Assembly (NCBI GenBank): GCA_027028145.1
Contig: JALVJV010000023.1
Location: forward strand, 62,001 to 126,000
Direction: 5' to 3'
Source of the DNA: Archaeoglobaceae archaeon
GTDB lineage: Archaea > Halobacteriota > Archaeoglobi > Archaeoglobales > Archaeoglobaceae
Length of the DNA: 64,000 nt
The position numbers and the translations under genes were made by a program. Position 1 is the first letter of the stretch. Every line of letters starts with the position of its first letter. This document shows, in pieces, positions 8,692 through 53,092 of this stretch. A model generated the notes under the pieces. It was not told where the DNA came from. It saw only the letters and a list, made by a program, of their open reading frames with translations, and ran no database searches.

Positions 8692-8751
8692 TTGAGGGAT
8701 GAGGAAACTTACGGGGTCTGAACAGTGATGACACTGGGCAGGACTGACCTC
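8692..8751 (+). ncRNA. Box C/D guide sRNA with two guides
   Basis: The plus strand shows the full kink-turn order. C box GGGATGA (8696-8702, one mismatch to RTGATGA), guide 8703-8717, D' box CTGA (8718-8721), 3-nt spacer, perfect C' box GTGATGA (8725-8731), 12-nt guide cactgggcagga (8732-8743), D box CTGA (8744-8747). The D guide is complementary to TCCTGCCCAGTG. From memory, CCUGCCCAGUG is conserved in domain IV of archaeal 23S rRNA, so position-5 methylation would fall on the G after CCU. The D' guide is complementary to ACCCCGTAAGTT, which also resembles a 23S segment. Target claims rest on recall; the box structure is directly visible. Confidence 0.85.
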
Positions 8752-11378: not shown

Positions 11379-12030
11379 GGTCTTTTTAACCGTTGCAATT
11401 ACTTTGATTTTCATTATAATATTCTTACCCGTAGTATCCGCCTTCAGCGACGAGCCGATAAACGTAAGTGACAAAAAACTGCAGGAAATCTTGAAGAAGG
11501 ATGATCCAAATGAAATTCCAATATCCTTTTGGGATTTACCGCTTTGGATTAAAATCCACTACATAATTACGGTCGTATTGGGTATAATCGGCGTTTGGAA
11601 GTTTCTGCCAATTTTAATTACAAAGTTAAAATCCGCTCTCGAAAACGCAAAGAGACGTAGAATTTTAAAGATAATCATGAAAAATCAGGGTATAAGCGTT
11701 GCCGAACTTGAAGTAATGACGAAAGAAAACAGAAGCACGCTCAGATACCATCTAAGCAGATTGGAGCAGGAGGGATGGATAAAAACCGTTAAGTTCGGCA
11801 AAAACAGGATTATATTTCTCAACACCGATGACATCGATTTAGCGAATGTTGTTAAGGGTAGGAAGAAAGAAATCGTAGAACTTTTAAAGGAAAACGGCGG
11901 CTTGACACCTTCGCAGATTGCTGAGAAATTAAAATTGAACGTTAAAACAGTCTATCATCACTTGGGAAATTTGATAGAATTGGGTATCGTAACTAAATGC
12001 GAGAACGGTAGATATAAACTTACTAAATGA
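11368..12030 (+). CDS. Membrane-tethered double winged-helix transcription regulator
   Basis: About 220 residues from the ATG at 11368 (MKAKVFLTVAITLIFIIIFL), which overlaps the preceding stop; an earlier in-frame ATG at 11290 lacks family support. It has an N-terminal signal anchor, a short exterior loop (SAFSDEPINVSDKK...), a second transmembrane segment (IIGVWKFLPILI region), then two ArsR/MarR-like winged helices in the cytoplasm. The first is RRILKIIMKNQGISVAELEV..STLRYHLSRLEQEGWI, and the second is KEIVELLKENGGLTPSQIAEKL..TVYHHLGNL. The layout suggests that an outside or membrane signal is passed to DNA directly. The target is probably the inverted repeat upstream of its own operon; that link is inference. 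Confidence 0.82.
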   Translation: MKAKVFLTVAITLIFIIIFLPVVSAFSDEPINVSDKKLQEILKKDDPNEIPISFWDLPLWIKIHYIITVVLGIIGVWKFLPILITKLKSALENAKRRRILKIIMKNQGISVAELEVMTKENRSTLRYHLSRLEQEGWIKTVKFGKNRIIFLNTDDIDLANVVKGRKKEIVELLKENGGLTPSQIAEKLKLNVKTVYHHLGNLIELGIVTKCENGRYKLTK

Positions 12031-15543: not shown

Positions 15544-16731
15544 ATGGAAAGGGACGTTGCAGTATTGGGCGTCGGGCAGACGAAATTCGGCTCACATCCG
15601 GATAAAACCCTGCCAGAACTTTTTGCGGAAGCGTTCTTTGAAGCATTCGATTCATCGAACATAGAGCTAAGAGATATCGAGGCGATATACTTCGGAAACT
15701 TCGTCGGAGAAATAACTGACGGAGCGGCAAACTTGGGCGGTTTCATAGCTGATGAAATAGGGCTGAGAGGGATTCCGGCTTATAGATTCGAAGGAGCTTG
15801 CGCATCATCTTCAGTAGCTTTCAGAGATGCATATTTGGCGGTGAAGCACGGTATCTACGATTGCGTTCTCGTCGGCGGGGCGGAGAAGCTCTATTCGGCT
15901 GGGACACCCATCGGAACGAGAGCATTAGCCACAGCTTTGGATTCCGCTTACGAAGTGAATTCCGGCTTGACTTTCCCCGGAGTTTTCGCTCTGATAGCGA
16001 GGTTATACGCGAAAACATATGACATCCCTTTGGAGAAGCTCAGAGAGAAGATCGCGCACGTTTCGGTTAAGAACCATAAATACGGGGCCATGAATCCTAA
16101 AGCTCAGTTCTACAACAAGTTCGGTGATCTGAAGGTCGAAGACGTTCTCAATTCGAGGATGATCTGCTCTCCATTAACGTTATTCGACTGCTGTCCGATG
16201 ACTGACGGGGCTTCGGCTGTAATCATAGCAACGGCAGATTTTGCGAAGGATAGAATTGACGAGCCGATATACGTGCGGGGAGCCGGACAATCCTCTGCCG
16301 GAAGCCTTTTCAGGCAGAAATGGGATGTGGTGAAAGCTTTGCCGAGAAAGAGATCTGCGGAGATGGCTTACAGAGAGGCCGGAATGACGCCGAAGGATAT
16401 AGACGTGGCATTCGTGCACGACTGTTTTACGATCGCTGAGGTTATAGCTACCGAAGCTATGGGATTCTTCGAATACGGAAAGGGTGCTGATGCCGTTGAA
16501 GAAGGGTTGACTTGGGCTGACGGAGAGATTCCCGTAAATCCGGACGGCGGTTTGATCGGCAAGGGTCATCCCGTCGGAGCAACGGGAACAGCCCAGATCT
16601 ATTCGGCAGTGAAACTGCTTAGAGGAGAGCTCGATTTTATCAAGATCGATGCTGAGACGGCAATCACAGATACTTTGGGCGGAGATTTCGGAACTCTTGT
16701 AAACGTAATTCTGAGCGTCCACAGGAGGTGA
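15544..16731 (+). CDS. Thiolase (acetyl-CoA acetyltransferase family)
   Basis: 395 residues with the thiolase plan. The nucleophile Cys is in YRFEGACASSSVAFRDA near residue 86, VHDCFTIAE holds the family His region, and a C-terminal GGLIGKGHPVGATG loop holds the second catalytic His. It condenses or cleaves acyl-CoAs. With the DUF35 protein five bases downstream it forms the typical archaeal thiolase unit, which in other archaea joins HMG-CoA synthase to channel acetoacetyl-CoA into the mevalonate pathway; a beta-oxidation role is equally possible in Archaeoglobales. A TATA-like aatttttatttcc lies about 25 bp upstream of the ATG. Confidence 0.9.
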   Translation: MERDVAVLGVGQTKFGSHPDKTLPELFAEAFFEAFDSSNIELRDIEAIYFGNFVGEITDGAANLGGFIADEIGLRGIPAYRFEGACASSSVAFRDAYLAVKHGIYDCVLVGGAEKLYSAGTPIGTRALATALDSAYEVNSGLTFPGVFALIARLYAKTYDIPLEKLREKIAHVSVKNHKYGAMNPKAQFYNKFGDLKVEDVLNSRMICSPLTLFDCCPMTDGASAVIIATADFAKDRIDEPIYVRGAGQSSAGSLFRQKWDVVKALPRKRSAEMAYREAGMTPKDIDVAFVHDCFTIAEVIATEAMGFFEYGKGADAVEEGLTWADGEIPVNPDGGLIGKGHPVGATGTAQIYSAVKLLRGELDFIKIDAETAITDTLGGDFGTLVNVILSVHRR

Positions 16732-20856: not shown

Positions 20857-21177
20857 ATGAAGCTGAGGGGTAGAGGTTTCGTCAATTTGGGAACGGAGAA
20901 GATCTACGAAATTCTGAGAAATCCGAACTTCAGTTTGGCTTTTGCCGAAATTCGTGAGTCTAAGCTTCATCTCCACAGGAGATCTACGGAACTCTACATG
21001 ATATGCGACGGCGAAGGGGTTCTGTTTCTGGGTAAGTCCAAAATCAGGATTCGTAAAGGAGACGTGATTAAGATCCCTCCGAACACACCCCACAAAGTAG
21101 TTTCTGAGGGTTGGGTAAAGCTGTTCGTCGTAAGCTATCCGCCTTGGAACGAGAACGATCACATTCTGCTGGAATGA
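20857..21177 (+). CDS. Cupin-domain protein
   Basis: 106 residues forming one small cupin barrel. Motif 1 is ESKLHLHRRSTELYMICDGEGVLFLG (metal-site His residues in LHLHR plus Glu) and motif 2 is IRKGDVIKIPPNTPHKVVSEGW with the third His. It may be a sugar isomerase-like or sensing cupin; the substrate is unknown. It follows the AMA gene by five bases. Its stop codon directly borders the 3' box of an antisense C/D sRNA. Confidence 0.85.
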   Translation: MKLRGRGFVNLGTEKIYEILRNPNFSLAFAEIRESKLHLHRRSTELYMICDGEGVLFLGKSKIRIRKGDVIKIPPNTPHKVVSEGWVKLFVVSYPPWNENDHILLE

Positions 21178-21233
21178 TCAGCCGACATCCCTGTCATCAT
21201 CTTTTATCAGACCCGATGGGTTTCATCACCCGA
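21175..21233 (-). ncRNA. Box C/D sRNA A
   Basis: Minus strand, all boxes perfect: C GTGATGA (21229-21223), guide aacccatcgggt (12 nt), D' CTGA (21210-21207), 6-nt spacer, C' ATGATGA (21200-21194), guide cagggatgtcgg (12 nt), D CTGA (21181-21178). A TATA-like TTTTTATTC (21253-21261) lies about 28 bp upstream of the C box. Guides are complementary to ACCCGATGGGTT and CCGACATCCCTG; the RNA targets were not identified. Its 3' end touches the stop of the cupin gene. Confidence 0.93.
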
Positions 21234-21263
21234 TCGAGTTTCGATTTAATGAGAATAAAAAGT

Positions 21264-21318
21264 TTATCAGTCCCGCGCACATCATCACCACTCAGCCCGG
21301 GTCGATCTCATCATCCAA
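21264..21318 (-). ncRNA. Box C/D sRNA B
   Basis: Minus strand: C ATGATGA (21314-21308), guide gatcgacccggg (12 nt), D' CTGA (21295-21292), 3-nt spacer, C' GTGATGA (21288-21282), guide tgtgcgcggga (11 nt), D CTGA (21270-21267). A TATA-like TTAAATAA on the minus strand (21339-21347) is about 25 bp before the C box. It is divergent from sRNA C, with which it shares a 36-bp promoter gap. Confidence 0.93.
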
Positions 21319-21348
21319 ACGTTTTTAAGTATCGACGGTTATTTAATC
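21319..21348. promoter_or_regulatory. Overlapping divergent TATA boxes for sRNAs B and C
   Basis: Between the C boxes of sRNA B (minus) and sRNA C (plus) lie GTTTTTAAGT (21320-21329, about 25 bp before the plus C box) and, reading leftward, TTAAATAA (21339-21347, about 25 bp before the minus C box). The spacing is almost symmetric, so transcription of the two RNAs would start past each other's TATA box. Confidence 0.6.
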
Positions 21349-21350
21349 TG

Positions 21351-21404
21351 GCGGATGATGACGTCCGGCCCTCCTGAATAATGAGGAGACGTTTTAGGTC
21401 TGAC
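21351..21404 (+). ncRNA. Box C/D sRNA C
   Basis: Plus strand: C ATGATGA (21355-21361), guide cgtccggccctc (12 nt), D' CTGA (21374-21377), 3-nt spacer, C' ATGAGGA (21381-21387, one mismatch), guide gacgttttaggt (12 nt), D CTGA (21400-21403). Guides are complementary to GAGGGCCGGACG and ACCTAAAACGTC. The next sRNA begins five bases later, so the two may be cut from one precursor. Confidence 0.92.
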
Positions 21405-21462
21405 GCCGATGATGACCTTGCCCTTCTCTGAATCGTGACGATACCCAGGGCACGCTGAGGCA
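21405..21462 (+). ncRNA. Box C/D sRNA D
   Basis: Plus strand: C ATGATGA (21409-21415), guide ccttgcccttct (12 nt), D' CTGA (21428-21431), 3-nt spacer, C' GTGACGA (21435-21441, one mismatch), guide tacccagggcacg (13 nt), D CTGA (21455-21458). No separate TATA box is evident within the preceding RNA, which supports a dicistronic C-D transcript. Guides are complementary to AGAAGGGCAAGG and CGTGCCCTGGGTA. Confidence 0.9.
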
Positions 21463-21496
21463 AAAGCCTTTTATGAAATTTGTCTCAAAATGACTG

Positions 21497-21553
21497 CGCC
21501 CGATGAAGAAAAAACAGTGCTGAACGGTGATGAATTTGCCGATTGCCGAGGGC
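21497..21553 (+). ncRNA. Box C/D sRNA E, with variant outer boxes
   Basis: Plus strand: C-like CCGATGA (21500-21506, two mismatches), guide agaaaaaacagtg (13 nt), perfect D' CTGA (21520-21523), 3-nt spacer, perfect C' GTGATGA (21527-21533), guide atttgccgattg (12 nt), D-like CCGA (21546-21549). Inner boxes are canonical while the outer pair is not, the reverse of the usual trend. TATA-like CTTTTATG (21468-21475) lies about 27 bp upstream, and GC-rich flanks could form a terminal stem. Plausible but less sure than A-D. Confidence 0.6.
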
Positions 21554-21569
21554 TCGATGGTAAAATTTA

Positions 21570-21597
21570 TATCGGTATCGATATATCGGTATCGATA
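21570..21597. promoter_or_regulatory. Tandem 14-bp repeat operator at the padR promoter
   Basis: TATCGGTATCGATA occurs twice with no gap (21570-21583 and 21584-21597), each copy containing the palindrome TATCGATA. It lies between the TATA-like TAAAATTTATA (21561-21571) and the ATG at 21597, so a protein bound here would block transcription start. With no room for a ribosome-binding site, the padR mRNA is probably leaderless. Autoregulation by the PadR protein is the natural reading. Confidence 0.75.
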
Positions 21598-22115
21598 TGG
21601 AAAAGATTCCGCGCGGTGTTCTGAAGTATCTAATTCTAAAGCTGTTGGATGAAAAACCCGATACCGGTTACGGTATAATAGCCAGAATTCGTGAGAAGAC
21701 CGGATTCTGGAAACCGTCAACCGGATCAATCTATCCGCTCCTCGATGGTCTGGTAACCGACGGTTTCGTAGAAAAATGCGAGCTCGACAACAGGTGCGTT
21801 TACAGGCTAACGGAAAAGGGAAAGGAAGCTTTAAAGGAGACGAGCAAAATAAAAACGGAACTGCTCGAAAAGATAAAGAACGCGCACATAGTCTTGGCGA
21901 AGATATTCGACGATCCCGACTTGATGATGGTTGCCGAGAGAATCGACGATAAAATTAAGAGGGGAATCCCCATATGCGCACTGATTCCGCGCGATTTTGT
22001 AGATACCCTCGAAAAACTATACCGATCTAACGTTGATAGAGATGCCGTTCTGGCTATACTCGAAGAAACCAGAAGAAAACTTGAAGATTTACTAAGAGAG
22101 GTCGATGAGAAATGA
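21597..22115 (+). CDS. PadR-family transcription regulator
   Basis: 172 residues. The N-terminal winged helix is the PadR signature, LKYLILKLLDEKPDTGYGIIARIREKTGFWKPSTGSIYPLLDGLVTDGFV, with YRLTEKGKEAL following. The helical C-terminal part (residues 90-172) mediates dimerisation. PadR proteins usually repress a neighbouring exporter and respond to its substrate. Here the ATG of the next gene overlaps the stop (ATGA), and an MFS drug exporter completes the operon, which fits exactly. The tandem repeat over its own promoter is the likely operator. Confidence 0.9.
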   Translation: MEKIPRGVLKYLILKLLDEKPDTGYGIIARIREKTGFWKPSTGSIYPLLDGLVTDGFVEKCELDNRCVYRLTEKGKEALKETSKIKTELLEKIKNAHIVLAKIFDDPDLMMVAERIDDKIKRGIPICALIPRDFVDTLEKLYRSNVDRDAVLAILEETRRKLEDLLREVDEK

Positions 22116-25625: not shown

Positions 25626-25684
25626 TTTCAGGGCTGGAACTACTCATCATCTTTAAATCAGATACGGCCGCATTCATCATCCGT
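25624..25684 (-). ncRNA. Box C/D sRNA F, predicted 16S rRNA guide
   Basis: Minus strand, all boxes perfect: C ATGATGA (25680-25674), guide atgcggccgtat (12 nt), D' CTGA (25661-25658), 7-nt spacer, C' ATGATGA (25650-25644), guide gtagttccagcc (12 nt), D CTGA (25631-25628). A TATA-like GTTTTATC on the minus strand (25706-25713) lies about 27 bp upstream. The D' guide is complementary to TACGGCCGCA, which from memory is conserved in small-subunit rRNA just before the central pseudoknot region (E. coli about 890). The D guide target GGCTGGAACTAC was not identified. It overlaps the last bases of the exporter gene. Confidence 0.93.
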
Positions 25685-51959: not shown

Positions 51960-53092
51960 TGTGGGTCTGCACGGGTTGTTCGTGTTTGTGCGACGACATA
52001 GAAATTGAAGGAGACGTAGTAAGGCATGCATGCAGGATAGGAGCCGGATTATACCTCAACCGTTCGGTTGCAAGAGCCGAACCCCTCATCGACGGAAAGC
52101 GAACTGATATCGATTCTGCTATTGAGAGGGCTGTGGAGATTCTGAAAGATTCGAAGAGCGTTGCAATCTACGGCTTAAACAATTCAACGCTCGAAGCTCA
52201 AAAGATCGCAATGAAGATCGCGGAGAAGATCTCCGCATACGTTGACAACGGATCGAAGTTCGGCAAGTTGGCGGAGATGATATTGAGGAAAGAGATACCT
52301 TCAACTACTCTTGAAAACGTGAAGGATTACGCTTACGTTATATTCTACTGGGGATGCGACGTTCACAATTCGATGCCGAGGCACATGTCGAGATACACCT
52401 ACTATCCGAGAGGGAAGAAGAGGCAGAGGGGATACGAGGAGGACAGGTTTTTGGTCGTCGTGGATGTTAGAAGAAGCCACACCGCTATGCTCGCTAAGAA
52501 GAACGCCGTCTTCATAAAGACGGACGACGACGGAAAACTCATTCGTGAATTCTTAACAGCTTTAGAAGGTGGAATAGCGAGCGGGGACGTTTTGAGAGTT
52601 GTCAAGGAGTTGAAGAAATCGGATTTCAACGTCATATTCGGCGGAGGGGGATTGATAGAAGGATTGGGTAACGAATTTGAGGAGTTCGTCAGATTCGTAA
52701 GCAATGTGGGTTACTTCATCCCCGCGGATTACCGCACGAATTCGATGGGATTCTTCAAAAGCCTATTCGAAGCTGGTATACCGAAGGCGAACTTAGAGGA
52801 TCTGCTCATCGACGAAAAAGTAGACACGGCGATCATCGTAGGTAGCGATCCGCTGAACTCGATGCCTTTCGACGTAGCTAAAAGACTTTTGAAGCTTAAA
52901 TTAATAGTTATAGATCCTAAAGTCAGTTTTACGTCAAAGATGGCGGATGTCGTAATTCCTTCTGCAATATCGGGTGTTGAATGCGGCGGAAAGATGATCA
53001 GAAGTGATTTCGTGGAAGTCGAACTGAAACCGATTTTTAAGTCGGAATACGACGATGCCAAGATATTGAGGAGTATTTCGGAGGGATTGTGA
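51956..53092 (+). CDS. fwdB: Formylmethanofuran dehydrogenase subunit B
   Basis: 378 residues. Starts VCTGCSCLCDDIEIEG (the [4Fe-4S] cysteines) and continues with VVRHACRIGAGLYLN, where the Cys is the tungsten/molybdenum ligand. FYWGCDVHNSMPRHMSRY and IIVGSDPLNSMPFDVAKRL belong to the molybdopterin-binding fold. It reduces or oxidises the formyl group on methanofuran, the first C1 step of the methyl branch. FwdA and FwdC are not in this window. Overlaps the preceding gene by four bases, and fwdD follows in one base. Confidence 0.92.
   Translation: MMWVCTGCSCLCDDIEIEGDVVRHACRIGAGLYLNRSVARAEPLIDGKRTDIDSAIERAVEILKDSKSVAIYGLNNSTLEAQKIAMKIAEKISAYVDNGSKFGKLAEMILRKEIPSTTLENVKDYAYVIFYWGCDVHNSMPRHMSRYTYYPRGKKRQRGYEEDRFLVVVDVRRSHTAMLAKKNAVFIKTDDDGKLIREFLTALEGGIASGDVLRVVKELKKSDFNVIFGGGGLIEGLGNEFEEFVRFVSNVGYFIPADYRTNSMGFFKSLFEAGIPKANLEDLLIDEKVDTAIIVGSDPLNSMPFDVAKRLLKLKLIVIDPKVSFTSKMADVVIPSAISGVECGGKMIRSDFVEVELKPIFKSEYDDAKILRSISEGL

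Follow-up and report, generated by a model that had tools for sequence, protein, structure and literature searches.

Five box C/D sRNA genes in one intergenic region

In the window analysed here, a stretch of 64,000 nucleotides from a heat-loving Archaeoglobaceae archaeon with a genome of 1.52 Mb in 24 contigs, the interval between a cupin-domain gene (20857–21177, plus strand) and a gene for a PadR-type regulator (21597–22115, plus strand) is occupied by what are very probably five box C/D sRNA genes of archaeal type, arranged in a compact cluster. These genes, named A to E, span positions 21178–21549, with A and B encoded on the minus strand and C, D and E on the plus strand. They are listed below, each in the order box C, guide, box D', spacer, box C', guide, box D, together with the evidence by which it was recognised.

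21178..21229, minus strand: C/D sRNA A, GTGATGA·AACCCATCGGGT·CTGA·TAAAAG·ATGATGA·CAGGGATGTCGG·CTGA (unit scan, congeners and genome G015)
21267..21314, minus strand: C/D sRNA B, ATGATGA·GATCGACCCGGG·CTGA·GTG·GTGATGA·TGTGCGCGGGA·CTGA (unit scan, congeners, Rfam snoPyro_CD with 41.9 bits)
21355..21403, plus strand: C/D sRNA C, ATGATGA·CGTCCGGCCCTC·CTGA·ATA·ATGAGGA·GACGTTTTAGGT·CTGA (unit scan, congeners)
21409..21458, plus strand: C/D sRNA D, ATGATGA·CCTTGCCCTTCT·CTGA·ATC·GTGACGA·TACCCAGGGCACG·CTGA (unit scan, congeners and genome G015)
21500..21549, plus strand: C/D sRNA E, CCGATGA·AGAAAAAACAGTG·CTGA·ACG·GTGATGA·ATTTGCCGATTG·CCGA (sequence; eight genomes of four genera)

An earlier note on this DNA had proposed five C/D sRNAs within 380 bp on two strands, and all five units were found where it had placed them. 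A scan for full C/D units returned A to D, and E, with its variant outer boxes, was located by hand; the boxes C, D', C' and D follow each other in this order in all five. The boxes of A to D had been described as near-perfect; those of A and B are in fact perfect, whereas C and D each carry one mismatch in box C' (ATGAGGA and GTGACGA, respectively). The description of E as canonical inside and variant outside is accurate, given that its D' and C' boxes are canonical, box C reads CCGATGA and box D reads CCGA.

The 64-kb window contains three copies of the exact order TGATGA-guide-CTGA-spacer-TGATGA, and 100 shuffles yielded none; genome-wide, the strict box pattern has 35 matches, some of which overlap, against 0 for a reversed-pattern control. 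Genes for fibrillarin and L7Ae are found in the host genome. In scoring with covariance models, which had been suggested as a check, Rfam C/D models match all five genes, but each of these matches falls below the curated gathering cut-off, which counts against the cluster, and at the gathering threshold the sole Rfam match in the window is a tRNA. Such a score is a practical criterion and does not define the family; genome-wide, no more than two C/D genes exceed the cut-off of RF00095.

Conservation and rearrangement in related genomes

All five sRNA genes are kept in four congeneric genomes (G001–G004), and the relatives with the locus carry the names Archaeoglobaceae archaeon or Ferroglobus sp. 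Across a 411-base region, identity to the host sequence amounts to 98% in G001, 92% in G003 and 79% in G004, and the match in G002 is in three pieces. Whether the boxes are conserved in relatives had been named as a point on which the proposal could fail; it withstands this check, since at 79% identity, in the G004 alignment, boxes and guides are almost unchanged and the spacers and flanks have drifted. The alignments of the individual sRNAs give the same picture, with variable D'-C' spacers and flanks and nearly invariant boxes and guides. Box C' of D reads TGATGA in G002, G003, G004 and G015. In the last of these, which belongs to another genus, A and D are adjacent and divergent (L017).

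The cluster is interrupted in two of the congeners. In G002, A and B are separated by a UPF0175 gene and a gene of the DUF3368/PIN-like type, the latter interrupted by an in-frame stop (L015, 690–1480), and C and D by ~610 A+T-rich bases. In G003, ~300 bases, containing a weak frame of ribbon-helix-helix-like type, stand between D and E. Every insert is located at an exact gene border and leaves each sRNA unit whole, as would be expected for units that are separable and under selection.

Of the five genes, E is the most widely conserved; its D half (TGATGAATTTGCCGATT) is invariant in eight genomes representing four genera, box D being CTGA in three of them. Its D-side guide is present in three further genera beyond that of the host. 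In G014, the D' guide beside the D half of E differs and reads CCCCTCCCCTAG. G004 possesses the E gene together with a second C/D gene (L114) that carries CCCCTCCCCTAA as well as the TTGCCGATT guide in a shifted register, so that the gene in G014 may be an orthologue of this second gene. In L020 (G014:C1, ~298037) and in L114 (G004:C16, ~42109), a CCCCTCCCCTA guide and the E-like TTGCCGATT guide are combined within one C/D gene; this guide combination, the register of which is shifted in L114, may reflect duplication or guide exchange between C/D genes.

Putative promoters and transcription units

The sequence upstream of 30 further C/D genes of the genome is richest in A+T (0.88) some 30 bases ahead of box C. 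The promoter matrix built on these 30 genes is weak, with 20 of the 30 training genes scoring in the top tenth of the background; single promoter scores are, thus, no proof. At the position that is usual for this lineage, namely at -33 or -34, A, B, C and E have TATA-like words with background fractions of 0.013 to 0.066:

21256..21263, minus strand: TATA-like element of A, ACTTTTTA, 34 bases before box C and just past the end of B
21321..21328, plus strand: TATA-like element of C, GTTTTTAA, 34 bases before box C and beside the 5' end of B
21340..21347, minus strand: TATA-like element of B, ATTAAATA (minus), 33 bases before box C and beside the 5' end of C
21466..21473, plus strand: TATA-like element of E, GCCTTTTA, 34 bases before box C

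The TATA boxes of B and C had been described as placed symmetrically in the gap between these genes. Both elements are indeed located there, but that of B adjoins C and that of C adjoins B, so that the two promoters would cross within 40 bases. The A+T-rich element of B is kept in the four congeners. The T run contained in the element of A may end the transcript of B, and the element of E, together with the preceding GGCAAAAGCC, resembles a terminator that could serve C-D. A second divergent pair with crossed TATA-like elements is found 40 bases from a tRNA gene elsewhere in the genome (C5:16148–16201, minus, and 16237–16292, plus; L081) and is kept in G003 and G004. Two more C/D sRNA genes of the window (8696–8747, plus strand, and 25628–25680, minus strand) have a TATA-like element at the usual distance.

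As previously noted, C and D are five bases apart and there is no canonical TATA between them; D probably shares the transcript of C. A further matrix match, GAATAATG, lies within C, 33 bases ahead of D; it is weak and poorly conserved and makes a weak promoter for D possible. Joint transcription is not obligatory, since D lies apart from C in G002. The CGCC between the two genes can pair with GGCG of C or, as GCC, with GGC of D; read from the sequence, the terminal stems of C and D would, therefore, compete with each other in a joint transcript.

Alternatively, the RNAs of each strand could be released from longer polycistronic precursors (B-A and C-D-E) by k-turn-dependent trimming, instead of being transcribed from separate promoters. 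Such precursors would suit the distances of only 5 to 41 bases between genes of the same strand and the lack of own promoters in most archaeal C/D genes studied (PMC7994747). We consider this unlikely because A and E are each preceded, at the standard distance, by a TATA-like element that is conserved in the congeners, that of E being kept in G003 although the DNA upstream is a different one; C-D alone fits the polycistron model. The organisation preferred here comprises four putative transcription units (A, B, C-D and E), in which B and C would be expressed from the crossed divergent promoters and D would be processed out of the transcript of C.

Predicted rRNA targets

By the established rule for this family, a box C/D guide targets the rRNA base opposite its own fifth base, counted upstream from box D or D'. 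The guides were tested against the 16S rRNA of the host, the 23S rRNAs of the congener G004 and of G005, and 42 tRNAs; the two foreign 23S rRNAs were used because the 23S gene of the host was not found in its assembly, nor were those of G001–G003. Positions are given in E. coli numbering, obtained by MAFFT alignment to the MG1655 rRNAs, and may be a few bases off near gaps. In the double-guide test, pairing of both guides within ~110 nt was scored against 300 shuffles per RNA. The earlier note had suggested searching the rRNAs and tRNAs with the guide complements, and for four of the five RNAs this gave rRNA target pairs of the double-guide kind:

C/D sRNA A: 23S G2048 (D' guide) and C2020 (D guide), 0/300 shuffles
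C/D sRNA C: 16S G500 (D' guide) and A572 (D guide), 0/300 shuffles
C/D sRNA D: 23S G1588 (D' guide) and C1623 (D guide), 0/300 shuffles
C/D sRNA E: 23S G1776 (D' guide, weaker) and C1672 (D guide), 0/300 shuffles

Taken singly, the D' guide of C is weak, and so is that of E; the former pairs at least one base longer in G003 and G004. The score of the D-side guide of E against 23S C1672 is reached by none of 500 shuffles. For B, no rRNA target above chance was obtained with the 16S rRNA of the host and the 23S rRNAs of G004 and G005, and among the 42 tRNAs there was no convincing target for any guide, including those of B. A match of ten bases between the D' guide of B and the G005 23S rRNA near position 1045 was rejected because the G004 23S rRNA does not have it.

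The best pairing of the D' guide of D is with 23S G1303 (12 pairs, one of them G-U; score reached by 9 of 500 shuffles). In the archaeal LSU model, GGGC in the G1303 site pairs with GCCC in the C1623 site, which makes the two best sites of D opposite strands of one helix, separated by ~320 nt. Published patterns include double guides acting within 100 nt as well as guides directed to opposite strands of one helix (PMC4644070).

The opposite-strand sites of D, which are known from chaperone-type sRNAs (PMC4644070), and the failure of B to match an rRNA or tRNA target in these comparisons might indicate that some of the RNAs are mainly antisense or regulatory RNAs or rRNA-folding chaperones instead of methylation guides. 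This is quite improbable, considering that all five carry the box set of methylation guides and that methylation and chaperoning are compatible. Least credible by far is that only A to D are genuine and that E is a degenerate or fortuitous copy whose outer boxes are broken, as its CCGATGA and CCGA boxes and its promoter score, the lowest of the five, could imply, since its D half is invariant in eight genomes of four genera, its box D is CTGA in three of them and its D-side guide pairs with C1672 beyond any shuffle.

Proposed working and significance

If the five RNAs are methylation guides, as is preferred here, each of them would form a k-turn from boxes C and D and a k-loop from boxes C' and D', and would bind L7Ae, Nop5 and fibrillarin. 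The guides would then direct 2'-O-methylation to the rRNA bases selected by the rule given above. Given its sites, D would bind two distant strands of one helix in 23S domain III and may, thereby, aid rRNA folding.

A more far-reaching and rather speculative idea, which is on the whole unlikely, is that the five-gene block is itself a selected unit. The crossed promoters, the stem shared by C and D and the T-rich end/start elements would tie together the expression of guides directed at the 16S G500–A572 region and at 23S domains III–V, and D would chaperone the long-range helix of domain III.

The locus provides nine predicted, testable 2'-O-methylation sites in an uncultured lineage. Furthermore, the intact and split clusters of G001–G004 and G015 constitute a natural series for the transcription and rearrangement of C/D sRNA genes, and D is a direct test case for the proposal that double-guide sRNAs join distant rRNA strands.

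Comparison with known systems

With the archaeal double-guide box C/D sRNAs (RF00095 snoPyro_CD, sR families), the five RNAs share a length of 48–53 nt from box to box, four boxes, guides of 11–13 nt, a D'-C' spacing of 3–6 nt and predicted rRNA targets. The guides, in contrast, are unlike those of the curated Rfam families, hence the scores below cut-off. Like the folding-chaperone sRNAs (PMC4644070, Table 3), D pairs with far-apart sites on opposite strands of one helix; it differs from them in that its helix closes part of 23S domain III. The site pair of D was not recognised among the entries of this table, the comparison being made across differing, unconverted numbering systems.

Other compact C/D arrangements are found in this lineage. 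On contig C21 of the host genome (192788–192914, minus strand; L094 280–500, L122), four consecutive C/D guide units are preceded by a single TATA-like element; the second box D is followed by the next box C after only three bases, and there is no room for terminal stems. This array, which is conserved in G001, G002 and G004, would be either a gapless dicistron or a four-guide RNA. A chain of three C/D guides is present in L117 (G003:C132, ~11550–11650) and in L115 (G004:C10, ~52988–53070), the middle guide of which could serve either neighbour; the host's own copy (L078) is without the third box C.

According to the available part of the literature on this subject (Tripp et al. 2017, reviewed in PMC7994747), archaeal C/D clusters of two or three genes and dicistronic precursors are established. 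The close tandem genes and the apparent C-D precursor agree with what is described there; the present locus differs from the clusters covered in that part by its five genes on both strands, its crossed promoters and its mostly own TATA-like elements. The density of the locus had been called unusual, and the five-gene block is indeed the largest among the C/D blocks found in the host genome. However, roughly every second C/D gene identified there is clustered (~17 of at least 35 lie within 150 bases of another), and smaller clusters are published. Five genes on two strands are, therefore, an extreme case of a known arrangement and not a new kind of RNA.
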